This document shows, one piece after another, positions 5,731-59,900 of a stretch of 64,000 bases of DNA. How positions within the stretch are numbered: the stretch's first letter is position 1; each line of letters opens with the position of its first letter. This DNA is from Pyropia yezoensis (lineage: Eukaryota; Rhodophyta; Bangiophyceae; Bangiales; Bangiaceae): NCBI GenBank assembly GCA_009829735.1, contig CM020619.1, forward strand, positions 183,925-247,924. The letters are read 5' to 3'. The notes under the pieces were generated by a model that was given only the letters and a program-made list of their open reading frames with translations, searched no databases and was not told where the DNA came from. The translations under genes were made by a program, and so were the position numbers.

Positions 5731-7134
5731 GTGTGGCGGTAGCACTCCCGCCGGGGTGAGCACTGCCCATGTGGCGGTTACACTCCCGGCGGGGTGAGCA
5801 CTGCCTGTGTGGCGGTAGCACTCCCGGCGGGGTGAGCACTGCCTGTGTGGCGGTAGCACTCCCGCCGGGGTGAGCACTGCCCATGTGGCGGTAGCACTCC
5901 CGGCGGGGTGAGCACTGCCCATGTGGCGGTAGCACTCCCGCCGGGGTGGGCACTGCCTGTGTGGCGGTTACACTCCCGGCGGGGTGAGCACTGCCTGTGT
6001 GGCGGTAGCACTCCCGCCGGGGTGAGCACTGCCCATGTGGCGGTAGCACTCCCGCCGGGGTGAGCACTGCCTGTGTGGCGGTTACACTCCCGGCGGGGTG
6101 AGCACTGCCTGTGTGGCGGTAGCACTCCCGGCGGGGTGAGCACTGCCTGTGTGGCGGTAGCACTCCCGCCGGGGTGAGCACTGCCCATGTGGCGGTTGCA
6201 CTCCCGGCGGGGTGAGCACTGCCTGTGTGGCGGTAGCACTCCCGGCGGGGTGAGCACTGCCTGTGTGGCGGTTACACTCCCGGCGGGGTGAGCACTGCCT
6301 GTGTGGCGGTAGCACTCCCGGCGGGGTGAGCACTGCCTGTGTGGCGGTAGCACTCCCGGCGGGGTGAGCACTGCCTGTGTGGCGGTAGCACTCCCGCCGG
6401 GGTGAGCACTGCCTGTGTGGCGGTTACACTCCCGGCGGGGTGAGCACTGCTTGTGTGGCGGTAGCACTCCCGCCGGGGTGAGCACTGCCTGTGTGGCGGT
6501 AGCACTCCCGCCGGGGTGAGCACTGCCCATGTGGCGGTTGCACTCCCGGCGGGGTGAGCACTGCCTGTGTGGCGGTAGCACTCCCGGCGGGGCGAGCACT
6601 GCCTGTATGGCGGTAGCACTCCCGGCGGGGTGAGCACTGCCTGTGTGGCGGTAGCACTCCCGGCGGGGTGAGCACTGCCTGTGTGGCGGTTGCACTCCCG
6701 GCGGGGTGAGCACTGCCTGTGTGGCGGTGCACTCCCGGCGGGGTGAGCACTGCCTGTGTGGCGGTAGCACTCCCGGCGGGGTGAGCACTGCCTGTGTGGC
6801 GGTAGCACTCCCGCCGGGGTGAGCACTGCCTGTGTGGCGGTTGCACTCCCGGCGGGGTGAGCACTGCCTGTGTGGCGGTTACACTCCCGGCGGGGTGAGC
6901 ACTGCCTGTGTGGCGGTAGCACTCCCGGCGGGGTGAGCACTGCCTGTGTGGCGGTAGCACTCCCGCCGGGGTGAGCACTGCCTGTGTGGCGGTAGCACTC
7001 CCGGCGGGGCGAGCACTGCCCATGTGGCGGTTGCACTCCCGGCGGGGTGAGCACTGCCTGTGTGGCGGTTGCACTCCCGGCGGGGTGAGCACTGCCTGTG
7101 TGGCGGTAGCACTCCCGCCGGGGTGAGCACTGCC
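5731..7134. repeat. 38-bp minisatellite, about 37 copies
   Basis: The unit is TGTGTGGCGGTAGCACTCCC + GGCGGGGTGAGCACTGCC (38 bp). It is repeated head to tail for 1,404 bp with little divergence. Copies differ mainly at three variable sites: TGTGTGG or CCATGTGG; GTAGCAC, GTTACAC or GTTGCAC; and CCCGGCGG or CCCGCCGG. A few copies carry single changes or a 2-bp deletion (near 6720-6730). Because 38 is not a multiple of 3, three units make a 114-bp super-repeat, so every minus-strand frame encodes the same 38-residue cycle (motifs AVLTPPGVLPPHRQCSPRRE and CYRHTGSAHPAGSATATQ). No minus-strand frame meets a stop within the array. Confidence 0.95.
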
Positions 7135-17700: not shown

Positions 17701-19901
17701 CCCCAGCAGAGCCCCGCGAGGCGTCAACCACCTCCGCTTTCAGTAGTGGCGGCCCGCGGGGCGGTCCCACTTGCGGCTCGTGCACCCCTCGGACGGGTCG
17801 CGGACCCCTGCCCACCACAAAATCTGGGGGCACAAGCCACATCCCTCTGCCCCCGTGGCTCCTGTTGCGAGATGGGGGCTAGCCGACGTGGCTCCCGCCA
17901 CCGCCACCCCTTTTGCACCGTCAGTGGGAACGAAGGGACATCACTCCAAGTGGCAAGTGCTCCCACCGCCGCCACCCGCCACCACCCGCCGCCACCAGCG
18001 CAACCGCCGCCGCCGCCACCGCAGCTCCCCCGCCTTGCCGGGTATTTCTTGTTTGGTTCCGCCGCCCCGCGCCGTCATGGCGGGGGGGAGCTCGACGAGC
18101 AGGGGAACGGATGGCGTGCGGACCGTACGGCACGCGGCGGCCCGCGGCGGTCTCTCTGCGTGTGGGAGGACAGCTGCCGGAAGAGGAGGGGGGGGGAGGC
18201 GGTCTGCGCGCCATAGCGCACGACGCGGGAAGGGGGAGGAGGAGGAGGAGCGTGGGGGTCTGGCCCGGCTGGCTGGCGATTTGGGTGGCTATCGCGCCGG
18301 GCGGCGCGTGACGCGATTTTGCTAGATTCATTTCAAGTGTTTGATCACTCGGCGGCCCGGGGGGGGTGGTACCAGCTGACACTGGTGCCCGACGGCACAG
18401 TGACGCCCCTAGCAGCCTCATGATGCCACTGCGGGTCCGATACAACGTCTGTCTCCAGTCAGGGGCAGGAGGCGCCTGGGAACAAGGAGGGACAGGTGCT
18501 CGACCGCAGGGTCGTAGTATTTCTTGAAAGGACATTAAGAACAGCCCTGCCTCTGACAGCCATGTTGGCAAGCGCAACAGCTTGATGCCAAGCACCTGCC
18601 TGGCGAGAAGGAGGGGCTCGCTGGGGGGAGTGTGAGACCTGCTGCTCGTCCTCTCACCATCGGTTTAAGGCTGTCGCTCCGAGAGAGGCTGGACCACGTC
18701 TGTTGCACAAGAGTGCCCACAGTGGCATGTACGTACGTATCGTGCGAGCGCGTCCCTATAGAGACAGCTTCGCGCCGAGTTCGGTCTGTAGACGACGTTC
18801 TCCACCGTGAGGGGTGCAGACCTGCGCAGTAGTTCTTTAGCTCTGAATTTCTGCTGTTCACGGCTGGCTATGCCAGAGCCGCCGAAGGGTCCACTACCGA
18901 CTCCGCCGTACCGCTTGCTGCACTCTCTCCGCCAGTTGCATCCCACCCACCAATTGACGTCTCTGTCACTGCCGTACCACCAGTCAACCTTCTGGGAAAG
19001 CCTTGAATCGATACTCCTGCATGGCACCTACGCATATGGACACAGGCCGTCTGCGTTCCTGTCGAGCATTTTGAAAGGGGCTGGGGGAGACTGGCAAAAA
19101 GGACGACAGGTGCTCGACGGTAGGGTCCGCTGAAGAACACCTTAGGAACCGCGAGTGCTCCGTTCCAGCGCAAAGTGTGCGGTACGTTCGAAGCTGCACC
19201 AGCTGATGATGCGAGCGGCTCGATTCCACAGTGAATGACGGCTGGTGCTGATGTGTGGCAGATGACCCAGCTGGGCACCTGACTCAACAACCTGCGTCAC
19301 TCCCGCGTCAAGACATGGGGTGGGAGGGACATGGGTCGCTTGGGTGTATGTTGCGAGTTGCCGAAAGCTATGTGTTAAGTGACGAGCCATTTTGCAGTTC
19401 ACTATACGGAAATACATGTCGCACTAGTAGTTAGCGTCTCACAGTCTGAGAGAGTAGCAACATCCTGGCTGCGACACTTTGCGGAGACTTGTTGACCTAG
19501 ACTTGACTGACACAGGTCGATCAAACCACAAGTACAAGCAGTCCGAAGGGTCGAATGAATTCGGGTACTGTCTGGGCCAATCAGCAGCGCGCTTGCATCG
19601 GGGCAAGTACGGAACCACGTCGTTCCACAGATTGGTCGAGAGGCGTGGCGGCGGGTCTGAGGCGGGAGGAGGGGTGTGCCCGAAAAACGACTCCCGCACC
19701 TCGTGTGCCTGCTGGCCAGGCCGTGTGGGCCACACCCGCGCACCGTGCGTGAGCATTGTTGTTCTGGTGACGACCCCAGCCTGTCCGCGGCCTTCACCGC
19801 CAGCGCGGCCGTTGGGGCCTCTGGGCTTCTACACCGCGCGCTGCGCCTCGGTGCATGGCCCGGGGCCGCCCCCGTAGGTGGTGTGCCGACCATGCGTGAT
19901 C
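14792..19901. other. Long gene-poor interval between GATA and lipin genes
   Basis: Apart from the TATA-like site I find no supportable gene. Between 15.2 and 18.3 kb the DNA is extremely GC-rich with many G runs, so frames stay open on both strands, for instance 16290-17882 plus and 15802-16788 minus, without family resemblance. From 18.4 to 19.9 kb composition is more even. There a short phrase (AGGTGCTCGAC(C/G)G(C/T)AGGGTC) recurs at about 18495 and 19108, hinting at an old duplication. The 19.4-19.9 kb part should hold the lipin promoter and 5' UTR. Confidence 0.4.
15256..15263 (-). promoter_or_regulatory. Possible TATA box of the GATA gene
   Basis: The minus strand reads GCGTATAAAAGG, a near-consensus TATA box about 465 bp upstream of the GATA start codon. 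It would imply a 5' UTR of roughly 430 bp. No other TATA-like sequence lies between it and the gene. Confidence 0.35.
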
Positions 19902-22900
19902 ATGAGCCAATATGTCAACCGATTCTTCAGCGCGGTGGGGTCAGCGCTCGAGTTCAACGCCGCGACGCTGTCGGGGGCTATCGACATTATCGTGGTAGAG
20001 GACGACGATGGCGTTCGGCGGTGCTCCCCGTTTCATGTGCGCTTTGGGAAGCTGCAGCTGCTCAAGTCTCGCGGCATGGCCGTTGATGTGTGGCTGAACG
20101 ACGTCAAAACTGACCTAACCCTGCGACTAGGCACGGCCGGGGAGGCCTACTTTGTGGCCCCCGAGCCAGACGCGGTTGTCACTACGACCACTGCCTCTCA
20201 CCCTTCGTCGCCCCCTTTGCCAACTGACGAGCAAGGGCGGCCCGCTTCACCGCCAGTGCAAGCTGGGTCCACGGATGGCTCGGGGGCTGCCCCCACGGTG
20301 CCCCTTCAAGGGCGTGACCAGACATGGCCCGCGGCGGATGGAGCCAACCGGCACTCGGACGTGACCGCGGTTGTGCGTTCGGACACGGACGCCCTTGCGG
20401 ATGCAGGCACGAAGCGCAGTGGGGACGCGTCCGTAGACGCTTCCGCGGTCGAGGGTGCGCCCACCTGTGCAGAACCTGGAGCCAAGGCTACGCCTATCGG
20501 TGCAAACGTGAGTGCGGGTGGGTGTGCGAGAGCCGGCTCGGAAGTGGTCGTGCTCTCACACTCGGATGGTCAAGGGGATGCTGACGCTGGTTCAAGTGCT
20601 TGTGTTGCTGCTGACCGCCGGGTTGTCCCAGCGGTGGACGCGACTGCCAGCGTGGTTTCCGAGGTGAGCAACGCAGGTGCTGGTGCTGGTGCGGATTTCC
20701 GGCTTGATGAACTGGCGGGTGGTGGCAGCAGTGGGGGCTCTCTGGCCAACAGCGCTGGCAGCAGCAATAGCAAGCAGCAGCCCGATGCGGATATCCCGTT
20801 GGATGGGGCGGGCCCCCGGAGAACACCCGTCGAGCCACCCGGCTTCGTCGCTGGGGATGCGTCTCCCACTCCCTCGCCACCATGTCCAGAGGAGGATCCG
20901 GCAGCACACATCCTGCACTTCCAGCGCAGCATGCGCCACCGGAGTGCGTCCAAGTCGACCAGCAGGAGGAGAAGAAGACGGAGGCGATCGTTGTCGCAGC
21001 CCGCGTTGCCTCGGTCGCCGCTGCAGAGCCAAACCCGTGGAGGGCACATCCGCTGCGCCTCCAGCGTCGACCCGTCTGTTCGCAGTGTGGCCTTGAGCGG
21101 AGACGAACGAACCGAGTCATTGTCTGCGCCGCTTACTCGTCAGTTATTTGTGCGGGACGCGTCGTCGGGCTCTCTGGTCGTCCGGGACGTTGTGGAGCAG
21201 GACGCAGACGATGGGAGCCAGGGCTCGTCTGCCGGCGAGGATGTGCTTGCACTTTCCCTATGCGGCAGCTACATCACCCCTGGGCTGTCGCATGAGGAGG
21301 TCATGGCCATCTTTGAGCAACATCGGGTAGCCTACTCGGAGTTTGCTGCGTCCCCGTCTCGAATCTTTGCCAACGCGGACCTCCGCTGCATGGTGGACCG
21401 GCGGCTTGTGCCATGGGCCATTGCGGCCCCGTACATTGTGTCAATGCTGGCGTATGGAGTGCCGCTGGACCTCGATCGGCTGACCTCTCCGTGTGGAACG
21501 GGCGCGACGGCGGATGTGAGTGAGGAGCGGAGGGCCGTGCTGGAGGCGGAGGCCAAAGACGCTGCCGCAGCCGCCAAGGCCGAAGCGGCCGCGGCTGCGC
21601 CGTCATCGGCAGACACGGAGCCGCGTCGCCGCTTTTCCTGGTTTGGTCTTCGCTCCTCTTACTCCCAGTCGGATGTTGGTCGTGGCCCCGAGGATGGTTC
21701 GGGCCCTGCCGCTGCGTCAGAGCAGGCACCGGCTCCTGGTCTGTGGAGTAGCGTCACGTCGGCAGACGAGACTGACCGGTCTTCTGGGGAGCGCCTGGTC
21801 GTGCAATCGGCTTCCCTCTCGACTCCCTCCCCATTGATGGACGACGACGACTCGTCTGAGGACCTCGACGGTGGCGACGAGGGCGTCCCCGATCAAGGGC
21901 ACCGCCGGACGACCAAGCGGGAGGTAACGGGTGCTGTGGCGGCGGCAGTCAAGGGCGCGGTGACCCACCCGCTGCACCCGCTGTCAGCTGCCGACGCCGC
22001 GGCCACTGCGGTGGAGGTTGCAGTGGAAGGCGGGGAGCTTCTTCCCCGTGGGCGCCTGTCCATGCGTCCGACTGCAGCCGAGCTGTCTGTGCTCCCCCTG
22101 CGGCCAGGGGATAATGACGTGCGGTTTGTGGTGCGGTCGACCCTGCAGGGCATCCAGGAGGTGTCTGCCAAGCTCTTTCTGTGGCATGCTGACGACCGTG
22201 TGGTCGTTAGCGATGTGGACGGCACGATCACCCGGTCAGACCTGCTGGGCCACCTGCTCCCCCGGGTGGGCCGTGATTGGTCGCACTCTGGGGTGGCTGG
22301 CCTCTACACCCGCATTGCGCGTAATGGTTACAAGATTGTGTACCTCACGGCGCGCCCTATCGGCCAGGCCGCGTCCACGCGCGCCTTTCTGGCGTCGTTG
22401 ACCCAGGCGCGGGGCCAGCAGCTGCCGCTTGGCCCACTGGTAATGTCCCCAGACAGGCTGGTGGAGAGCCTCACGCGGGAAGTCATCCGGCGCACCCCGC
22501 ACGAGTTCAAAATTGCGGCGCTGCGGGACATCCAGCGCCTGTTTGTGCCAGACGAGGACGAGGACGACGCGGAGGCGCCCGAGAACGAAAAGGCGGTTGT
22601 GGCCAAGGAGGTGCGACCTGTCCACGAGGATCGCGTCATCCCGTCGCAGCCGGCAGTGGACGAGCCGGCGCCGTCGACGAGCTCGCCCGCCGACGGCGCG
22701 GCGGCCTCATCGTTCCCCCCGGCGGCGGAGGCACCCCCTGGGGCTCCACCCAGGGGGGGCCCACCCGGGGTGGGCATTCGTACGCGCGCCACGTCCGCAA
22801 CGGGCAGCGGGGCGGCGACGCCCGAGCGGACGGGCGGCAGCTCGTCGCTGTTGCGGAGCCTGTCCGAGGGGCACTATGGGGTCAAGCAGCTGGTCTCGTC

Positions 22901-23576
22901 TATTCCCGCCATCTCCCTCGGGCCTGCCTCCCACGCGACCGCCTCCCTGGCTGGCGAGCAGCTCGCCAAGCCACCCGCACCCGACAACACCCTCCGCCCA
23001 TCCGCGACGGGTCCGCTCCCGTCGTCGTCGGCGGGTTCGGGGGGGGGGGGGCTCGCCGCGTCGGACCGCCGGGAGCTCCAGTCGGTGGCGGCCGCCCGGT
23101 CTCGGTCGCGGCGACCGTCGACGCCCTTTCACGCGGGCTTTGGCAACCGCGCCACCGACGAGCTGTCCTACCGCACCGTCGGGCTGCCGCCGCAGCGCAT
23201 CTTTACGATCAACCCCGCGGGGGAGCTGGCGGTCATGAACGCCCTGTACGAGTCGACGTGCAGCTACAGTAACCTTGAGGACCTCGTGGAGAGCGTCTTT
23301 CCCGACGTTGGCGTCCGTCCATTGGCTCACGGTGGCGGCACAGGTGGCGGTGGCGGCGGTGGCGGCAGCGAGGGTCGTAGCGGCGGCGGCGGCGGCAGCT
23401 GGGGCGGCGGGTTCGGGGCTGGGTTTGGCGGCGGTGGTGGGTTGGCCGCCGACCGGGGTGGCCCGCCGGCAGTGGTGGCGCGCGCGGTTGCCGCGAGTGA
23501 CTCGTACAATGACTTTCACTACTGGAAGCCGCCGCTGCCGTCGGTGGCGGTGGACGAGTTTGATAGTCTTTTGTGA
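19902..23576 (+). CDS. PAH: Lipin-type phosphatidate phosphatase (PAH), insertion in catalytic domain
   Basis: A single uninterrupted ORF of 1,224 residues. I start at the ATG at 19902 because MSQYVNRFF opens the N-lipin domain; an ATG eight codons upstream adds unrelated residues. Residues 1-86 are N-LIP (NAATLSGAIDIIVVEDDDG, CSPFHVRFGKLQLLKSRG). A polybasic stretch with eight arginines lies near 343-366 and could act in membrane or nuclear targeting, as in other lipins. A middle block (LSLCGSYITPGLSHEEV, RLVPWAIAAPYIVSMLAYGV) matches plant PAH. The LNS2/HAD domain starts at about 740, with the catalytic DVDGT motif at 771-775. It makes diacylglycerol from phosphatidic acid with Mg2+, for triacylglycerol and phospholipid synthesis at the ER. 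The domain is split: IQRLFVPDEDEDD (about 880) is followed by some 190 Ser/Pro/Gly-rich residues before PFHAGFGNRATDELSYR (about 1075), where homologues join directly. A Gly-rich tail ends the protein. Confidence 0.92.
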   Translation: MSQYVNRFFSAVGSALEFNAATLSGAIDIIVVEDDDGVRRCSPFHVRFGKLQLLKSRGMAVDVWLNDVKTDLTLRLGTAGEAYFVAPEPDAVVTTTTASHPSSPPLPTDEQGRPASPPVQAGSTDGSGAAPTVPLQGRDQTWPAADGANRHSDVTAVVRSDTDALADAGTKRSGDASVDASAVEGAPTCAEPGAKATPIGANVSAGGCARAGSEVVVLSHSDGQGDADAGSSACVAADRRVVPAVDATASVVSEVSNAGAGAGADFRLDELAGGGSSGGSLANSAGSSNSKQQPDADIPLDGAGPRRTPVEPPGFVAGDASPTPSPPCPEEDPAAHILHFQRSMRHRSASKSTSRRRRRRRRSLSQPALPRSPLQSQTRGGHIRCASSVDPSVRSVALSGDERTESLSAPLTRQLFVRDASSGSLVVRDVVEQDADDGSQGSSAGEDVLALSLCGSYITPGLSHEEVMAIFEQHRVAYSEFAASPSRIFANADLRCMVDRRLVPWAIAAPYIVSMLAYGVPLDLDRLTSPCGTGATADVSEERRAVLEAEAKDAAAAAKAEAAAAAPSSADTEPRRRFSWFGLRSSYSQSDVGRGPEDGSGPAAASEQAPAPGLWSSVTSADETDRSSGERLVVQSASLSTPSPLMDDDDSSEDLDGGDEGVPDQGHRRTTKREVTGAVAAAVKGAVTHPLHPLSAADAAATAVEVAVEGGELLPRGRLSMRPTAAELSVLPLRPGDNDVRFVVRSTLQGIQEVSAKLFLWHADDRVVVSDVDGTITRSDLLGHLLPRVGRDWSHSGVAGLYTRIARNGYKIVYLTARPIGQAASTRAFLASLTQARGQQLPLGPLVMSPDRLVESLTREVIRRTPHEFKIAALRDIQRLFVPDEDEDDAEAPENEKAVVAKEVRPVHEDRVIPSQPAVDEPAPSTSSPADGAAASSFPPAAEAPPGAPPRGGPPGVGIRTRATSATGSGAATPERTGGSSSLLRSLSEGHYGVKQLVSSIPAISLGPASHATASLAGEQLAKPPAPDNTLRPSATGPLPSSSAGSGGGGLAASDRRELQSVAAARSRSRRPSTPFHAGFGNRATDELSYRTVGLPPQRIFTINPAGELAVMNALYESTCSYSNLEDLVESVFPDVGVRPLAHGGGTGGGGGGGGSEGRSGGGGGSWGGGFGAGFGGGGGLAADRGGPPAVVARAVAASDSYNDFHYWKPPLPSVAVDEFDSLL

Positions 23577-47825: not shown

Positions 47826-48907
47826 TCAGCCCGCCCGGGAGCCCGCTACCCGGGTGCCCCCCCTCCCATCGGTTTTTTTTTCATCCACCCGTCTTGCGGC
47901 GCCCCCTCCCGCCGCCAACACCGCCTCGGCAGCGGCGGCAAGCACCCCCACCAGCCGCGCGTGCTCGGCCACGTTGCTGCCGTGGTCCCCCCCGACGGCC
48001 GCCTCAATGAGCACCGTCTGGCCAGCGCCCGCGGCGAGCGCCGCGACCAGCCCCGCGGCCGTGGTCACCCGCGCGTGGGGCACGCCAAACGCGGCCGCGA
48101 GCGACCCAAAGTGTGCGTCGTGGGGGGTTGAAAAAGCGCGGCCAAAGACCGCTGCCGACGACGCGACAGGGAGGAACGAAAAGATGCCGCCGCCCCCATT
48201 GTTGACCACCACCGTCCGCAGGGGGGGAAGGGCAGGCGCCCCACTGCCGCCGCCTCCGCCGCCGTCTCTGCCGTCGCCGCCGCTGCCGCTACCGCTACCG
48301 CTGCTGCTGGATGCCGCGCTCAGTCCACCAGCCCCCCCCGCGTTAGCCCCATACAGATGAAAGCCGCAGCCGTCGTGGAGAAGGGCCATGTCGCCCACCA
48401 GCAGCGTCGTTGGCGACCCAGACCCCACCGCCCACCCAATCGCCGACGACACAATGCCGTCAATGCCGCTCGCACCCCGGTTGGCCGCCACCGTCGCGCC
48501 CACCCAGCCGCCCGCCGCGGCATCGCCCACACCCGCCGCATCGCCCTCATTGTCGGCGGCGGCGGAGTTGGTGGTGATGGTGGTGGGGGCGGAATGGGGC
48601 GCACCCCCAGCCGCCGCCGCCGCCGCCGCCGCCGCCGCTCCGTCCCCGCCGCGGCCGGCAAACGCGTCCACATCCCGCACGGGCATGCTGTTGGAGAGGA
48701 AGAGGGACTCGCCGGGCGGGACGGCGGCAGCCACCAACCGCGCGACGAGGGGCTCTGTCAGGCGGCCCGCGGGGGCGTCACCGGCAGCGACCGCGGTGGC
48801 CACCTCCCGGTCTAGTGCCGCCGCCACCGCCGCCGACAAGTCGAGCAGAATGGACAGGCCCTGGTCGCGGCTACTGCTCGACCCCCCATCGTGGCTGTCG
48901 TTGACGG

Positions 48908-48942
<35 letters not shown>

Positions 48943-51900
48943 CCGCCGCCCCTGCAGCCGCCGCCAGGTACCCCGTTGGGCACCAACGCAGGGCGGGCGT
49001 GCCCGTTGGCCAGGGGCACCGCCGCTGCCGCCGTCGACAATGGCGGCAGCGACGGCGATGGCGACGGCGACGGCAATGAAAAAAGTGGCGGCGACAGGGG
49101 CGGCAGCGGCGCCGCGGGCGTCACCTCCAGCGCCGCCACCAAAGCCGCGGGGGAGACGGCCAGCCGGTGCGTTACCGCCGCGTGCTCATCCAGGCGCCCC
49201 CCCGCGTCGCCCGCCACCGTCACATACGCGGTGGAGGCGGCGGCGGCCCAGGCGGCCACGCGCTTGGACACCACCCGCCCGCCCACGTGGAGTACCACGT
49301 CGGGCGGCGCAAGCGCAGCGGCGAGGCTGGCCAACAGCGGCGGCGACAACGCTGCCGCCTTTTTTGCGGTGGCCGCCAGCAGCGGGTCAAGGTGCTCCAC
49401 CACCCCGGTGGGCGGGGCGGTGGGGCCGTCCGCCCCACTCCCCCCGCGCCCCCCGGCCAGACCATACGCGCGGAGGCCCGACGTGGCGTCGGCCACGACG
49501 GGCCAGCCCAGCCGCGCGCCCAGCGTCAGCACCGCAAACCGGTCGCCGCGGCGGCGGCACAGCCCCCCCCCAGCGAGGATCACCCCCCGGGCGGCGCCGC
49601 GGAGGAGCGCCAGCACCGACGCGTCCACCCGCCCCCCCCCCGCAGACGCTGACGACGACCGCCCGCCCGAGTACACCGTCCACGGAGCCCGCGAGCGCGC
49701 CCAGCGGTCGGTGCCCGCCAGCACGGACGCGGTGGGCCACGGCACCACCACTGGGTGGAGAGGCTCCCGAAACATAAAGTTGAGGTGCACCGGCCCGGGC
49801 TCGCCAACGCCCGCCACCCCGACTGCCGCCGCAACGGCCGCGTCCACGTCTGCCAGCAGCCGGCGGAGGGGCACCTCGGCCGTCGGGCAGGGGACGTCGC
49901 GAAACGCGCGGAGGAGCCCCCCGCCCGCCGCGCCGACGCCGCCACCGCCCAGCAGGCCCGCCTGCTCAATCGTCTGGTTGGCGCCCGTCCCCCGCGCGTC
50001 GGACGGGCGGTCGGCAGTGAGAAGCAGCAGCGGCAGCGCCGACGCGGCAGCCTCAACGACGGCGGGCAGCAGGTTGGCCACGGCGGTGCCCGACGAAGTG
50101 ACCACCGCGACGGGGCGGCCGCCCGCCGCGGCGGCGGCGGCGGCAGCGGCAAACGCCGCGCCCCGCTCGTCGTGACCAATAATGACGGTCGCGTGGCGGG
50201 AGGCGGCGAGCGCGCCCGCCAGCGGCGCGGACCGGGAGCCGGGGCAGACGAAAAAGGGGCCGACGCCCAGGCGGACAAGCTCGTCCACCACCGCCGCGCC
50301 CCAGAGGGCGTTGAGGTTGGGCGCGGCGGCCAGGTTGGCGGGATCAAAGGGGACCAGCCCGGCTGCCGGTATGGCGGCCGCCGCACCGGGCTGGGAGGCG
50401 GGGGGGGGGGCGGCCGCGGTGAGGGACACCACGCGACCATGACCATTGGCAACGGGGGAGCCGGCCAGGAGTGCCGCCGCCCCTTTCCGACGACCGGGCG
50501 ACGCCACCACCGTCGCCATCGCCATCCCCGCATCGCTGGTGAGCCCACTTGCGTCCACAATCCCGTCAACGGCGCCAATACGATTGCCCACCCCGCCGCC
50601 GCCGCCGCCGCCGCCACCGCCGCCGCCACCGCCACCGTTGCCGCTGCTGCCGTCAGCGCCCGCAGCATCGCCATCGTCGCTGCCACTGCGCTCGCCGCTC
50701 GAGTCAATCCCTGCAAGTCCCTCCCCCCCCCGCGCCAGCGCCTCAACCGACACGTCCGCGTCCACGACGGTACACACCCGGCGGTGGGGATGAAAGAGCT
50801 CCGTAAAAGGCGCCATCTTGAGCTCCGCCTCGTCCCACTCGGAGCGGGACGACGACCCCGCCACCACCCCCGACCCCGCATAGGCCGTCACCGTGTCGCC
50901 CGCCACGACCGCCGACCGCAGCGCCACACAAAAGTCTGAGGCGGTGCGGGAGAAGCAGCCGAGCGGGCCCGCGTAGAGGCCCCGGTCAAACGGCTCGAGC
51001 GCGCGCAGGACCGCCTGCGTCACGGCCCGGGGGGTGCCGCACACCGCAGGGGTGGGGTGCATCCGTGAGAGGAGAGCGTGCGCCTTGCGCGACGGAACAC
51101 CCGTAGTCCCCACCCCCCCGCCCCCCCGCGCGCCGTCTCCGTCACCGTTGCCGTCACTGGAAGCGCCGTCACCGCCGCCGTCATTGTCGGCAAAGCTCCC
51201 ACTGATCTGGGTGGACAGGTGGAGCAGCTGCGGCAGCCGCACAATCACCGGCCCCGTCGTTGAGACGGTCGCGCCACAGTCGCCCATCGCGCGGGCCACA
51301 TAATCGACCACGTACGAGTGCTCGGTGCGGTCCTTGCGGCTGCCCAGCAGCGCTCGCGCCGCGGCCGCGATGCCCGCGTCGACCGCGCCGAGAGCGGTTA
51401 TCGCGTCACGGGCCACCGCGTCATCGCCGGGGGTGTCTTCAGGTGTGAGGGGCGCTCCCCCCCCCTCTTTGGGACTCTCCCCCCCAACCTTGATTCCGTG
51501 GGTAATGGGGGGGGGGGCGGAAGGCGTTGCCGCGGCCCCCGTCCCCCCGCCACCCTCCCTGGTGCCCACACACCGGATGGTACCCGCAAGGGCCTGGGAC
51601 GAGATGCGCATCCCGTCGAGGCGAAAGAGCCGCTCTGGGGTGCACCCCACAAACGCGGTGCCGTCGGCCAGCTGGAGAACAAATAGGTAGGTGCCCCGGG
51701 CGGCGCGCGCGGCGGCGGCCTGCCGCGCCTCGAGCGCCGCCGCCACCGCTACCGCGTCGGGCGGGGAGGCAAATCGAAACGCCTTGCGCCGGGCGAGCAC
51801 AATCTTGTCGTACGTACCCGCCGCAATGGCCGCCAGGACGGTCGCCATGGACGACCGCCACCGCCCATACCCGTCCACATCGATCACAGACGTGGCGCGG

Positions 51901-53021
51901 ACGGTCGTGTGCGGGGGGCCGAGTGCCACGGGCGGCGCCCCGTCGGTGGCTGCCGCAACCGCCGCGGCCGCCGCGGCAATGACCGCCGCGTCATCTGCAA
52001 TGATGTTGACGGCAAGGACGGAGCGGGCGCGGTTAGGGTCGCCACCGTCGAGGCGTTGGAGCTCGAGGGCGGGCAACACAAAAGTGTAGCCCCGAAAGGC
52101 CGACCAATCTCCTGGCTTTCTCGAAGCACCACCGCCACCGCCACCGCAACCGCCACCGCCACCACCACCACCACCGCCACCGCCACCGCTACCGCCGTCG
52201 CCGTCACCGCCAACGTCTTCGCCGTCGCTGCTGCTTCCCCCCCCCCCCTCCCCCGCGTCAAAGCGGATGCCGCCATAAAAGCGAGCCAGCGGCGCCTCTG
52301 GGGGCAGCAGCTCAATCAGCGCCGCGTGGGCGGCGGCGCCGTACCCCCCCGCCTCCGACGCGGTGACCGCAAACCCCGAAGCCGCCGTCTCGTGCCGCCC
52401 GTCGCGGCAGCGAAAGTAGAGGCGCTCCCGAGGAGGCTGGCAGCGCAGCCACCTTAGCGGCGGGACTGTCGGGTCAACGTCAAGCTCCAGGCGCGCCACC
52501 GGACAAGGAGGGTGTGGTGGTGATGGTGGTGGTGGCGGTGGTGGTGGTGGTGACGGTGGCGTTGGCGGTGGCAATGAACGTGGGGGAGGGGAAGAAGCGG
52601 CGGAGGCAGAGTCGGTGGTGGTGGCGGCGGTGGTGGCGGTGGTAGTGGCGGCAGTGGTGGTGGCTGCGGTGGTGGTGGCTGCGGTGGTGGTGGTGGTGGA
52701 GGTTGTGGTGGTTGCAGGCGCAGTGGCGGTGGCGACGGCCGCAAAAACAGCCGCCGACGTGGCCGCTTCGGCCAGCCAGTCAGCCGCCGCGGCCAGCGCG
52801 AGCGACAGCGGCAGCGGTGGCGGGCCTGCGGGCGGCCGGCTGACGATGCCCGCCGCCGCCGGTGGTGCCCGCCACGGGTCGCCGCGGGGGGCGCTCCCAG
52901 CACCAGCTCCGGCACAGCCACTGGCATCAGCATCAGCACCGGCGCTGGCGGATGCGGCGTCAAGGCCACTCCCGCCGCCGCCGACGCCGCCGCCACTGGC
53001 TGTGCGTCTGTGCGCCACCAT
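47826..53021 (-). CDS. MenF-MenD fusion: isochorismate synthase / SEPHCHC synthase
   Basis: A single 5.2-kb ORF, 1,731 residues. Residues 1-200 are low-complexity and may include a plastid transit region. About 205-735 is isochorismate synthase: WLRCQPPRERLYFRCRDG, YDKIVLARRKAFRF with the catalytic-region lysine, GCTPERLFR, ALAGTIR, EHSYVVDYVA, MHPTPAVCGTPR, LYAGPLG and EWDEAELKM with metal ligands. After a Gly-rich linker, about 895-1700 is MenD: CPGSRSAPL, GHDERGAAFAA (the ThDP-activating Glu), VTSSGTAVANLLPAV, LLLTADRP, NQTIEQAGLL, SNSMPVRDVDAF, NRGASGIDGIV, GDMALLHDGCGFHLYG and VVNNGGGGIFSFLP. Together they turn chorismate into SEPHCHC, the first two steps towards phylloquinone or menaquinone. 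Plant PHYLLO proteins add MenC and MenH domains in the same chain; this ORF stops right after MenD. A coding-looking frame at 53284-53050 (VPLELIPQV, GVWRLNPLRC, TVDATLGWW) lacks an ATG and may be the true N-terminus joined by a frame change or intron. Confidence 0.92.
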
Positions 53022-55087
53022 CCCAACGTCGCATCGACGGTGACAGAGCCGCCCGGTGGGGAGGAGCCAGCGGCGGCCAGTCGACAGCGGAGGGGGTTGA
53101 GCCGCCAGACACCTTCAGGGGTGGGGAGCGCGGGTAAAGCGGGATCGACGTGGCAGAGGCGGGGGGCGGCGGGGATGACCAAGGCTAACAGACCCCACCC
53201 CTGTCGCGAAGGCGCCGGAGCGCGACGCACTTGGGGGATGAGCTCAAGCGGCACGCCCCAGCCGCCGAGGTCACAGGCGACCAAACCGAGAAGCTAGCGG
53301 TCGGTGATTCACTTAGCAAGGGCCTGAAATGTGGCAATGATCATCCACAACTGGTGGCGAGACCTTCCACTTACCCTCTTGGCATCGGCCGCAATGAAAG
53401 CTCATTCGGGAAAACAGCCTGAGATTTTCTGTATCCCTTGTCCCATGTCTCTCATGCAGGCTACTTCATTGCAAGTACGCTTGTCGAAATCTATGTAGAT
53501 ATGTCGCGCCTCACGATTGAGACCTCATATAATTACTTTATCGCTGTGATCGAGTTGCTCTTCAGATGACAAAAAAAATATATGTATGAGGTTTCTATCG
53601 CAATGCGCCACACATATGTGGCCCGCAGCCTTCACTATCCATGTACTTACAGGGGGTCGGAGGTGTAGATCTGCATGATGTCAAGGAACACTACATTCGT
53701 GAATTTTCCTTTTTTTTCTGCTTTCTTGAGGGCACCCGCGCAGGCCTGTGGCCGAAGCCCGTCACTTTTTTTGGGGGGGGAGAGACCAGACGTCACTGAG
53801 TCCCCCCGTACCTGTAGCCGCGCTGGAGTGTAGCGGAAGAGTGAAGAGGCGGTCCATGTGCACAGGCCCGCCGTTTCCCCAAGCACGGGAGTTTGGGCGC
53901 CGTACCGAGACACGTCCTGTGCCCCGTTCACACACTCAGACTGGCGCTCAACGTGTCCCTACACTGGCACTCTGGGCGATCAGCAGTCCCCCTTCTCCTT
54001 CGCCACCTGCACCACCAGCCCCAACGCATGACAACACCTGCCCGTCCACCGCCGCGTGCTCGTCCTCTGCTGCCGACGCGCCGCCGGCAGCCACGGCGGC
54101 GGCCCACCGTCGCGGGTAGCCCACTGCAGCGACTGCCTCGGTGGCACCGCGGGCAGGCACGGCGCCTTTATGGGAAGTGGCGGCAGCAGCCCCGGCGGTG
54201 GGCGGGGAAAGCAAACGGCGACGGGTCGACCCCCGGCACACATGCACCGCCCCACCGCCAACCCCGCCAACGACGCCGCCGACCTCCAGTGCCGGCCTGT
54301 CCGCCGCCGCGTGCCGAGCTTCTGCCACCACCACCGCACCGCCAAACACCACCAGCATCGTCCATCACGGTAGTAAGACAACGTGCTGCCTCCCGACTAG
54401 GGTGAAAAGCCGAAACAGGGACACCCACACACCGACAGCCAGCAGCGGGGCGCCTTCGGCCGCCCGGGCATCAGGCAGCAAGCGTGCAGCCGCGCCAGTG
54501 GCGCCGCCGATCGACGGGCGCGGGGGGCGGCCGCTGCCGCGGCGTGGCGCGCGAATACGCCACACAACAGCTGCAAGGGGTGGGGCAGCGCGCAGGCAGG
54601 CAAAGAGGGAGCGCCGACAGCCGCGAGGGCGTCAGGCACAAGAAGGGCAGCCGCGCCCGTAGCGCCGCGGAACCGCGGGCACGCCAAGCGGCCACCGCCG
54701 CTGCGGCCGGGCGCGGAGAGAGCACCGAGCTAAGGGCAGCGGCCGGCGGGCTTGCCGCAGAGCGATGGCCAGCGGGAGAGGGCGGCGAAGGCAGCGGGCA
54801 AGGCAGGACCACAGGGGCAATCGCGCGAGCAGCGACACCCGCGCGACGCCACGCCGCGACGCTGCCGCAGCGACGCTGCCGCTGCGTCGTTGCTCGCGAG
54901 GAAATCGTGCAACAAAAGGGGCGGAGGAGGGGAGCTGATGGCGGTCACGCGAAGCTCGGCGACCTGGCGGTGGAGCGGCAGGGGGGGGGGGGCGGCGGTG
55001 GTGAGCACCATGCTGGCACCACGAGGGGCGGGAGCATCGTGGGTGGTGGGGGGGCGACGGCCGGGAGGGTGCCCACGAGCGTCGGTG
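53022..55087. other. 5' flank of MenF-MenD and unassigned GC-rich DNA
   Basis: 53.3-53.7 kb is AT-richer and is the likely MenF-MenD promoter region, although no clear TATA box is placed. From 54.0 to 55.1 kb all frames are low-complexity. Two diverged copies of a roughly 75-bp module lie at about 54434-54510 and 54596-54670; on the minus strand both give ATGAAA(R/L)L(L/V)PDA(R/L)AA. Confidence 0.4.
53651..53717 (-). CDS. Unassigned short exon
   Basis: A minus-strand segment is bounded by an acceptor (GAAAGCAG, ending at 53718) and a consensus donor (GTAAGT, 53645-53650). It reads KKGKFTNVVFLDIMQIYTSD P. It lies upstream of MenF-MenD on the same strand and could be a first-part exon of that gene or belong to another gene. 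The family is not recognised. Confidence 0.3.
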
Positions 55088-55335
55088 TAAGGTTGGCATA
55101 TACCGATCGGTACGATTTTCTGTACCGTTTAACGGGCGGTATACCGATTTACCGATTTCGTATCGGTATCTCGGTACGATAAATTTAGAGAATAATTCCA
55201 GTTCGTGCACTCAACCGCTGACGCCCAACCTGCGGATCCACACAAAGACCGGGTCCCCCCGGGCGCCTGCGCCCACTCGACCCCCCATCTCTTCACCCTC
55301 ACCCATGGTTTCCAATGCCCGCGAAACCTCTCCCT

Positions 55336-55614
55336 TTATTCATCACGCACCAAAGCACACATGTCCACAACAAGAAGGTGGGGAGCCATCCTATCCGCCC
55401 GCCCAGGGAGAGCCTCCGCAGGGTGGGCGACGTCTATCTTGGCAATAGCCTCGTCGCCGTTGCAGGCGGCTACAGCTTCCCGGTACCGCTCGTAGGAGGA
55501 CTCGCACGCAATACAGTACGCAGCCCAGTAGTTGGACGCCTTGCCGTCACCCCGCTTGTAGCGCTTGGTCGTCCGCCGAAACACCTTCCACACGGACATC
55601 GTCGTGGCCTGCAT
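55336..55614 (-). pseudogene. hAT transposase fragment with BED-type zinc finger
   Basis: The minus-strand frame reads MSVWKVFRRTTKRYKRGDGK, then YWAAYCIACESSYERYREAV and GRADRMAPHLLVVDMC. This is the W...C-X2-C...H...C layout of the BED fingers that open hAT transposases, including the 'MxPHL..C' ending. The stop at 55336 comes soon after the finger, and the catalytic RNase H-like and C-terminal dimerisation (hATC) parts are absent. It lies within the outer element, to the left of the inserted mariner copy. Confidence 0.5.
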
Positions 55615-55959
55615 CGTCCAGCGGGCGAGGGGGTTCGGAGAAGGTTGGGCGGAGGAAAGGGAAAAGCAAAAGGGGAGCCAGTGGAGGGTGCACAGGAGGA
55701 CAGGGTGCTCCACAGCATGTGTGGGGATGCGGGAGGGCGTCCTGCACCTGCCGCGGAATGGAGCAGTGCGCGGCGACCTGCCATCGCGGGAGCTGTTAGG
55801 ACTCGTACGGCTTTGATCCGGTGCCACGCATCTGCGCCGCAGCCCCAGTTGAGCCAACGCAAGGCTGCATGGCCAGTGACTGAGAGCAGGTGTGGCCACG
55901 GGGCCAGGAGGACTGGGGCGGGTGCCTGGCTGTGTGTGCCCGGGGCGCCGACGAACGTA

Positions 55960-56716
55960 CAGTTGGTACCCAATGTTATTTGCCCACCATGGCGGATCAC
56001 TTTTTACACCAAATCGACCACGGACGAGATCCAAAAAGCGGCCAAGGTGGTGCCGCTCTGGCGCATTGCAGTCACTTGGGCGCAGCGTTGCGGGGCATGG
56101 TGCTATAATGAAGCGCCCATAGCTTCTCTCCCAGCGAAGAAAAAAAAAAGCAGCACCATGGGCGGCAAGGGCAGGACCTCCCTATGCCCCCAGGAAGTCG
56201 GCGCCATCAAGACCATGGTCACGAACAAGAAGTCCAATGGGGCCATCGCGACCGCGCTCGGCATCCCCAAGTCGGTGGTCAGCTACCACGCAGCCAACGC
56301 GCTGCGGGCGGCGGCCACTGCGCGCCAGGACAACCGAGGTCGGCCGAAGCTCCTCAGCCCTCGAGAGCTGCGCGGGCTCCGCCGGGTGGTGGACGGCAAC
56401 CCTTTCGCCTCAATGGCGGAAATCGCCGAAAAGGTCAACCAGGGACGAACCAGCACCGCAGTCGGGCCCCCCCTCCCCAAGACAAAGGACGAGCTGTTCA
56501 CTTCCCTGCAGGAAGAGTGGGCGTCGATACCGAGCGCCTATTTCCAAGCACCTGACCGAGAGCATGTGCCGCCGTGTGCGGGGGGTGGTGGAAGCGAACG
56601 GGTCTGGCACCAAGTATTAGCGTGTTTCTTGCATTGGAAATGGACGGTCGCATCGAGTCAATATAAATATCAGGATCTGACGGTTGGGGTGGGCAAATAA
56701 TATTGGGTACCAACTG
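55960..56716 (+). mobile_element. Tc1/mariner deletion derivative nested in the hAT-like element
   Basis: A 757-bp element flanked on each side by TA (55958-55959 and 56717-56718), the Tc1/mariner target duplication. The inverted repeats begin CAGTTGGTACCCAAT(G/A)TTAT and match over about 28 bp with one mismatch. Inside is a transposase remnant with its DNA-binding start and its last residues but no catalytic middle, so the element is non-autonomous. Confidence 0.85.
56158..56620 (+). pseudogene. Tc1/mariner transposase, internally deleted and frameshifted
   Basis: From the ATG at 56158 the frame gives the N-terminal helix-turn-helix: SLCPQEVGAIKTMVTNKKSN, GAIATALGIPKSVVSYH. The second DNA-binding part follows (RGRPKLLSPRELRGLRRVVD, NPFASMAEIAEKVNQ). 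After RTSTAV it jumps directly to LPKTKDELFTSLQEEWASIP, the start of the family's C-terminal tail. The DDE/DDD catalytic core, well over 100 residues, is missing. A one-base loss near 56545 shifts the frame, after which ESMCRRVRGVVEANG ends GTKY at the TAG at 56618-56620, matching the usual tail. A normal transposase is about 340 residues; only about 154 codons remain. It cannot be catalytic. Confidence 0.8.
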
Positions 56717-56920
56717 TACATATGTTGCCTGTTTGAAATATAGGCACAGGTCATTTGGCAGTGGGGGGTAGAGGTCTCGAAGTATTTTTTTAAATACCTA
56801 TATCACTACCCTACCGAACTATACCGACATGTGAGCATATGGACAATACCGTTTACTGATCGGGATACCGACCTTTACCGATTTCGTTTACCGACCGAAA
56901 TTACTGATCTGCCAACCTTA

Positions 56921-59900
56921 GTCGGTTGGGGTGAGGAAGCCACGTGGTCGCCACGTTTCTGATCTGTGATTGGTGCATTTGCCTTCGTTCTACTGCGGAG
57001 CCTTCGATCTACTGCAGCAGCGGATCGAAGGCTGTGGTCTTCCTGGTTGCGAAGCCCGCGGAGGGGGGGGGGGACGGCATGCCCCTTGAGAGCGAATATA
57101 TTAGGATGTTTCACGACCGCAAGTTCCGGTGCGGAACCGTAGGGGGAGAAATCTGCCCAAGTTTTGGGATCTTTGAATTCGTCAACTACTTTTGTTCGTG
57201 GCTCACATTCTCCCCGTGTTGACTCACGAAAACGCTGGATGGACCCCTGGAGAAGCCGGGGGGTGCGGCGCAGAAGGGGGGGTTTTCACGACAAAAACGA
57301 TCCGGCCGGAAAAAACCGCACCCCCCCCCGTCTTCTCCGCATCCCCCGCCTCAGAGGCTTGTGATGGGGATAGCCCTGGGAGATATAAGTATGCTTTTTA
57401 TAGGAGGAAAAACCGCTCATACGAGAAGTTCCTAGCTGAGAGGCACGGGCGAGTCCCCCCCCAGGCCCCCTCCAGGGGCGGGTAGTGGTTGAGGCGGTGC
57501 GGGAGGCGGGTGGACGCTCCGCTTTCCGTGGGCGCAAAGACAGCACAGGACAAGAAGGGAGGGTGCATGGGAGTGAGGCTGACGAAGGGTGGTTGCGGAA
57601 GGGCTGGGTGGCGCGGCGCGTCTCTGCGGGCGGCGGGAGGGGTGAAAAAGGTGCCTGCACTGGGTGGGCATGAGGACAAGGGGGCGACGGGAAGTATAGG
57701 AGGGGCAGTTGCAGCGGCGGTGATGGCTGCACTTGATAGCATGAGGTCCACGGGTGGGAATGGGATTGGGCGACGGCAGGACAGGGGGTAGAGGGGAAGG
57801 CGGCAAGGGGGCAATAGGGAAGGCCAGGGCGGGGCAAGGGGAAGGTGAAGGGGAGGCGCCCCCACCTGCCCTTGGGCGCGCTCCCTCCCACCTGCACGTC
57901 AGCCGGTGGGGGGGGGGGCAGAGGGGAATGAGGGAGGGGGACAGAGGGAAAGGCCGGGGGGAGGGGCGGGCATGGGGCAGGTGGAAGGGGGGCACGGGGA
58001 ATGTCAAAGGTAGATGGGGTGCAGGGGGAGGATCCTCCGATGCGCCCCCAGCAGCGCGGGGGGGGGGCCCGCGGGGGTGCGGAAAAACCCCCGCGCTGCT
58101 GCCCTGCCGCACGCCCCCCCCCTTGTCTGCCTGCCGCACCCCCCCCCCCCTTGTCCGCCTGCCGAGGGCGTTGGGGGGCCCCTCTCGCGCTTTCAGGAGG
58201 CTACCCAGATCCGACCACTTGTGAGAAATTCTCTCGACCGTATATTCGTTCGCTCATGTTCTTGTGCCCCGCGGGTGTCCGTATGCTGCGGAAAAACCCC
58301 CTGCAGGATTTTTTTTATCGTGAAGCAACCTAATGGGGGGGGGGGGGGGGCCGCGGGTCTGGTGGCACGCCGCCGCTGCCGCTGTCTCCACCCACCCGCC
58401 CGTGGTTACCTACAAGCGCAAACGTGCGGCCGCCCGCCGCACCGCCGCCACCACCGCTGCCACCTGCGAGCATCCGTTGGGGGGGGTGGGAGCGGGCGTG
58501 CCGCCCCCCCGCCGCCGACACGACCGCCGGCGCCACGGCGCGTAGGTATCGTGGATGGGCGGGGGGGGGCGGGGGTGTGGGGGAGGGGTGGAGAGGAAGA
58601 AACGGCAGGCAGGCCAACTGGCCGGCTGGCCGGCTGGCGGGCGGCAACACAGCGGGCGCGCACCACCGTCTTGATCTTCGGATTTGTACACAACGCGGAT
58701 CCTTGTCTACGGTCTTCGTTGGCCTCTGTCCGCGAGTAGGCCCCAGTTTTGTTACATTGGTTCTCAGCAGCTGGACGTGAGACTGCTCTGCGACTTCCCA
58801 TTGGCTCACGCCACCTCTGCGCGAGACGTCGAGACGCATAACCTCCGCGTGCCAGGACCGTGGTTGGATCCACGAGCGGGCTATCGAACGCTTCATCGAT
58901 TGCGGGAAAACAAAGTAAAAAATCGGTGTCGGTAGGTCATTCCCGGATGGAGCGTCTTATCCGCCGGTCGACAACGTCCCAGACGACGGCAGCGGCGGTG
59001 CAAGGTCCCACCCCCCGTCCCCCCCCCCTCCCTCCTCCCTGTGCCCAACATCCCGTGAGTGTCCCACCGGCCGCTGCCAACCGCCCGTGGCGGGGCGGCA
59101 TCGTGCCCCTGGCGCGGCGGGGGGGGGGGGGGGGGGGGTCACGGGGAGCCGCCGCCCCATCCCCTGCCCCATCACAGGCCCCCCCCTCCCCCCTCCCCCC
59201 ACTTTAGACCCTCCCTGACCACCCCTGATGCCCCCCCCGCCGCCGCTAGCTGCCGCCGCCGCCGCCGTCGCCGCCGCCGCGTGCGGTTGGTCTCCCACCC
59301 GCGGCTCTGGGCGGCAAGCCGCCGGCGCGACAGGGGGGGGGGGGGCGGGGGGGAGGGGCGACCGGCCGGCTCTGTGGCGGCGGCGCAGCCACACCAGCCG
59401 GCGTGCCGGTGTACCCCGCCACACGGTGCCTGGCGGGAGGGCCCCTCCCCGCCCCCCTCCCCGCCCCCCCCCTGGGCGCCGGCACCCCGCCGCACCACCA
59501 CACCACCACAGACCGGCTCCCGCGTGGGGGAGAGGAGAGACGACGCCGTGACGGTGGCCGACCGCCCGCTGCCTCGGTTGAGGTCGGCGGTGCGTGCGGG
59601 GGACGGGGGGTGGGGGGGGGGGGTGCGGGGGGGGGGGGGGAAGGTGGTGGCCAAGGGGTGGTAGATAGGTAGTGCGTAGTGGCAGTGGCGGTGAGGATGG
59701 TAGGTCGCCGCCGACATGAGTCATCCATCCGCCAAAGGGGGGGGGGGGGGTTGGGGATGGGAGGGTGCGCGCACGGGGGGGTGGGGTGGTGTCCCCAAAG
59801 CGGTGGCCAGTGGCAGCGGCGGCAGCGGCAGCGGCAGCGGCGGCGGCAGCGGCAGCGGCAGCAGACACCAACCGCTGCAGCGGGTGCAGCAGGGCACCGT

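Follow-up and report, generated by a model that had tools for sequence, protein, structure and literature searches.

The closest described counterparts of the locus analysed here are the DNA transposons of the Tc1/mariner and hAT superfamilies and the internally deleted P elements of Drosophila, among which KP elements act as repressors of P elements. In the red alga Pyropia yezoensis, we examined a window of 64,000 nucleotides (C2:183925-247924) against the genome (107.48 Mb, 11 contigs) and found two such elements, one inside the other. The inner element resembles the Tc1 branch (DD34E) of Tc1/mariner in its TA duplication and in a terminal inverted repeat (TIR) that starts with CAGT, and its relatives carry HTH and DDE_3 domains, the DD34E spacing (in copy L004) and a match to Sleeping Beauty; it departs from that superfamily in the absence of the core from its short copies and in favouring GTAC over plain TA. 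The outer element resembles hAT transposons in its short TIR, its subterminal repeats and the hAT C-terminal dimerisation region of its longer relatives, but its target-site duplication (TSD) is 7 bp rather than 8 bp, its TIR reads TAAGGTTGGCA, and its divergent transposase leaves the solved hAT structures unmatched. As in KP and other deletion-derived P repressors, internal deletion has left a DNA-binding part and a reading frame, although the truncated inner frame is without sign of selection and the superfamilies are different.

Repeats account for ~48% of the P. yezoensis genome according to the genome paper (PMC7423979), and a two-element nest is ordinary for a genome of this composition. 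The word 'mariner' was not found in the main text of that paper. Literature searches returned neither nested Tc1/hAT MITEs in red algae, among the matches listed, nor an algal hAT element with a 7-bp TSD.

Organization of the locus

The inner element is a 757-bp non-autonomous copy of the Tc1 family (55960-56716; 763 bp with the flanking G and C) that begins with CAGTTGG, ends with CCAACTG and is bounded by TA dinucleotides on both sides (55958-55959 and 56717-56718), as the sequence-only reading of this stretch had claimed. Its TIRs (55960-55988 on the forward strand, 56688-56716 on the reverse strand) lie within 32-nt arms (55957-55988 and 56688-56719) that are 97% complementary and match each other at an E value of 4e-9 in a BLAST comparison within the window. 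Between them are the remains of a Tc1 transposase (56158-56700, forward strand), comprising the N-terminal DNA-binding part and C-terminal codons, with a frameshift and without the core; the internal-deletion scar (56476-56484) marks the loss of 597 alignment columns relative to the longer relatives. The HTH matches of the window frame are weak and stay below the Pfam cut-offs, whereas those of the longer relatives exceed them, in keeping with the proposed Tc1-like nature of the translation of 56158-56620.

The outer element (55088-56920; 1,833 bp including the inner insert) ends in a perfect 11-bp repeat (55088-55098, forward strand; 56910-56920, reverse strand) inside a 14-nt pair at 93%. 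Both inverted-repeat pairs described earlier are present at their reported positions, and TACCGAT-like units, also described earlier, occupy subterminal zones near both ends (55099-55161 and 56847-56887; direct repeats D2 and D11). The element is flanked by GTCGGTG on the left (55081-55087) and GTCGGTT on the right (56921-56927), which agree at six of seven bases and form its 7-bp TSD. Within the left arm, a 92-codon open frame on the reverse strand (55336-55614) consists of an N-terminal piece of a hAT-like transposase joined in frame to the last codons, with an internal-deletion scar at 55373-55378 that is common to five other short copies. All six short copies that are readable at this point (window, L010, L011, L012, L013 and L016) share the junction, and the relative at C1:10247732-10251013 holds ~2.2 kb there. 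These alignments indicate that the outer element is itself an internal deletion derivative, which had gone unseen in the sequence-only reading.

Elsewhere in the window, a 1,762-codon open frame (47826-53114, reverse strand) encodes chorismate-binding and thiamine-pyrophosphate-enzyme domains in the MenF-MenD order, as PHYLLO does in plants. A Lipin-like open frame (19878-23576, forward strand) contains Lipin_N, Lipin_mid and LNS2 domains, and self-comparison revealed a long tandem array with a unit of ~38 bp (5731-7134).

Copies of the two elements in the genome

Genome-wide searches were carried out for both terminal repeats, as had been proposed, with the outer left arm (55088-55956) and right arm (56720-56920) searched separately; the resulting match lists for both families are lower bounds, and counts drawn from them are to be read as minima. 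Outer and inner ends each recur over the genome, so neither end pair is a chance repeat. At least 15 places, among them the window, match 750 or more of the 763 inner bp at 91% identity or more, other matches being partial or more distant. Alignments spanning the insertion point covered eight other outer copies (L010, L011, L012, L013, L014, L015, L019 and L054), none of which contains the inner element. Two of these, L019 and L054, are more distant (~81-86% identity over pieces), the right-arm match of L012 is limited to 28 bp, and four bases are missing from L011 at the insertion point; a ninth outer copy (C3:2261452-2265304) has, by its coordinates, no space for the inner insert. The nesting is real: a hAT-like element lies outside, a Tc1/mariner element inside, and the outer one was there first, as originally suggested, with the outer sites lacking 55960-56716 that had been named as a check on it present in all eight alignments.

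The window copy of the outer element diverges by ~7-10% from the other short outer copies, and that of the inner element by ~3-8% from its short relatives. Since the two ranges meet, divergence is a weak guide to relative age, and the order of insertion rests on the nesting itself.

Further members of both families are split by other DNA (C1:22096219-22101073, C3:22455852-22470537 and C2:3109453-3115579, by ~4, 14 and 5 kb), so nesting is common for the inner and outer families. Inner-family copies L074/L085 (C3:845356-846680) and L068/L086 (C2:26643658-26645280) are broken by a related insert that starts with TGTGGCAGTATTGG; the insert in L085 ends with GCCACA and has TTTCT on both flanks, resembling a solo LTR between the two copies of a 5-bp duplication. 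Copies L078/L080 and L079 stop at a different insert (L087 and L088, 96% alike), which starts with TGTGGCAGTATTGACCCCC and is perhaps also an LTR.

Relatives of the inner element and the loss of its core

Longer relatives with the same TIR are represented by L004 and L061, which match DDE_3 (2.2e-12 and 1e-12, respectively) and HTH_Tnp_Tc3_2 (4.3e-11 and 1.4e-9); L004 also matches Sleeping Beauty SB100X at 1.9e-29. Its catalytic residues are D163, D254 and E289, with the spacer of 34 that defines DD34E, and the stretch missing from the short copies corresponds to its residues 107-305 of 352, which include all three. The earlier description of the inner transposase as one whose catalytic core is deleted is thereby borne out for the window frame. 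By DNA, L061 is the nearest full-length relative, with a broken frame; L004 has an open frame but is ~83% alike to the window copy. Open Tc1 frames in the genome comprise L004, whose TIR is the same, and many others that are more distant, five of which obtained equal scores (411 residues, 55% identity).

Alignment of the 25 inner copies fetched, the window copy included, showed one deletion junction common to 21. The remaining four are L004 and L061, in which the core is present, L077, which has a different junction, and L079, which ends before the junction. Because L069 and L071 share flanks, as do L078 and L080 (segmental duplicates), the 21 copies represent 19 independent insertions. The same junction in 21 of the 25 copies means that the deletion was inherited rather than made in place, and the alignment indicates that the catalytic core was gone before insertion, not after. 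The 85% alike relative L077 (C3:5267279-5268038) carries an in-frame deletion at nearly the same place with its own junction; here the core may have been lost a second time, independently.

A single mismatch between the inner TIRs had been taken as a sign of a fairly young insertion. The same variant is found in the copy at C3:7095057-7095819, which the tree keeps apart from the window copy (a recurrent mismatch is also possible); being shared with another copy, the mismatch is not a measure of time since insertion and provides no clock.

Target sites

Inner copies with readable ends have the TA duplication on both sides, and in the empty sites there is one TA-containing site. Where the flanks can be read, and with two duplicates set aside, the left TA has a G before it in 20 of 22 copies and the right TA has a C after it in 15 of 16; both are the case in 12 of the 15 copies in which both flanks can be read, against a background of 148 GTAC among the 976 TA sites of the window (one-sided binomial p = 4e-8). 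At the insertion point, the empty outer copies read GTAT (four copies, one of them GTATGC), GTAC (two copies) or another sequence (two copies).

After the right TA, the window carries four extra bases, CATA (within 56717-56722), that are missing from the empty outer copies. An excision footprint of Tc1 would read TA-CA-TA. The extra CATA might be the footprint of an earlier Tc1 visit, or simple slippage; two empty copies have a small repeat, ACGTACGT, at this site, and the empty copy L011 shows a 4-bp loss there.

For the outer family, 13 copies with both ends, paired by eye, gave a 7-bp TSD, with matches at 83 of 91 bases and seven copies exact; at 8 bp, 25 of 104 bases match (24%), so that the classical 8-bp duplication was not found.

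Domains and truncated frames

The Dimer_Tnp_hAT domain scores above its Pfam cut-off in two longer outer relatives (1.8e-5 and 1.4e-5), falls below it in two further ones (0.0064 and 0.00068) and is absent in the other pieces, and DUF659 is below its own cut-off in four relatives. A profile of five outer relatives compared with solved structures matched no hAT transposase. By eye, outer relatives contain a D, then C-x2-H and then a C-terminal SVERLFK stretch, an order of motifs that we take to be hAT-like. A BED finger had been reported in the outer element; zf-BED of Pfam had no match in the pieces scanned and that label stays unconfirmed, a C-x2-C...H-x3-C pattern being visible by eye in relatives.

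The deletions in both families preserve the parental frame on both sides; by chance, a break is in frame in one case out of three for each deletion. The whole 153-codon inner frame is intact in nine of the 21 short copies and broken in the window copy, and the outer frame is intact in three of the seven copies looked at. For dN/dS, we used 20 inner copies, namely the 19 independent ones with the shared junction and L079, leaving out the segmental duplicates L071 and L080, the core-bearing L004 and L061, and L077. These hold 57 synonymous and 158 other changes, giving a dN/dS against the family majority of 0.97, or 1.05 (p = 0.76) when corrected for the mutation spectrum of the element itself, and two shifted control frames did not differ (0.99 and 0.88); nonsense changes numbered six, against 6.2 expected. 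This analysis of 20 copies revealed no sign of selection on the 153-codon frame after insertion, the test being one that detects mainly post-insertion change and has little power on master copies.

Alternative explanations

The 1.83-kb unit might be one composite element that moves as a whole, as the outer ends flanking all of it would allow, although nothing further points that way. Every outer copy aligned at the insertion point is empty, the inner element stands full length at no fewer than 15 places, and among the genome matches listed there is no second copy of the unit and only the window has, by coordinates, an inner copy inside an outer one. The indivisible 1.83-kb family, against which the sequence-only reading had weighed its proposal, was accordingly not seen among those matches, and we give the composite unit next to no chance, rejecting it on the strength of the empty outer copies unless unlisted copies differ. 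The last step of the chronology proposed there, hAT-like element, then mariner, then decay, does not hold up. Core-bearing longer relatives do exist, so a complete mariner could have inserted and lost its core in place, but the same junction at different places would require that loss to recur many times; this order is almost certainly wrong and was rejected in favour of core loss that preceded insertion.

The outer element could instead belong to another superfamily with a 7-bp duplication, given its TSD length, its single modest hAT domain and the missing match to a solved hAT transposase. Against this, Dimer_Tnp_hAT exceeds the cut-off in two relatives, and the Repbase paper names '7-bp TSD' hAT families as a class and uses them as a search example, so that we do not take a 7-bp TSD as excluding hAT. 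A non-hAT origin seems unlikely, and the outer family probably encodes a divergent hAT transposase with a 7-bp TSD, a membership based on that one modest domain match. By analogy with KP, the short elements might also have been kept because they code for truncated DNA-binding proteins that act as repressors of the parent elements. Both deletions are in frame, as is the second, different junction of L077, and among the 21 short inner copies nine retain the whole frame; however, the inner dN/dS values resemble those of the controls, nonsense changes are as frequent as expected, and the frame is broken in the window copy itself. With a dN/dS of ~1, no different from that of the control frames, no sign of selection on the truncated inner protein was seen, and its retention as a repressor appears quite unlikely. 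A reading in which both short families owe their persistence to in-frame truncated DNA-binding proteins that damp the full-length elements, and in which two KP-like repressors from different superfamilies would be nested at this locus, we regard as very unlikely.

Origin and significance of the nested elements

The locus very probably arose when a Tc1-family element of 757 bp, already internally deleted, inserted at a TA of a hAT-like element that had likewise lost internal sequence. Each deletion would have arisen once, in a master copy, and the short forms, having both ends, would have spread in trans, by cut and paste, through the transposase of full-length relatives. A short hAT-like copy would have landed here first, leaving the 7-bp duplication, followed by a short Tc1 copy that entered it at a TA; since then, both would have drifted through point mutations and small indels. 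Neither element encodes a functional transposase. The inner and outer elements belong to small families that were already non-autonomous when they landed, and both look like ordinary members of these families.

The known picture of how such elements move is unchanged by this locus, which provides a clean, checkable nested insertion in a red alga, complete with empty-site controls, and places two small non-autonomous families alongside their longer relatives. For the annotation of such elements, the 7-bp duplication and the preference for GTAC are helpful.
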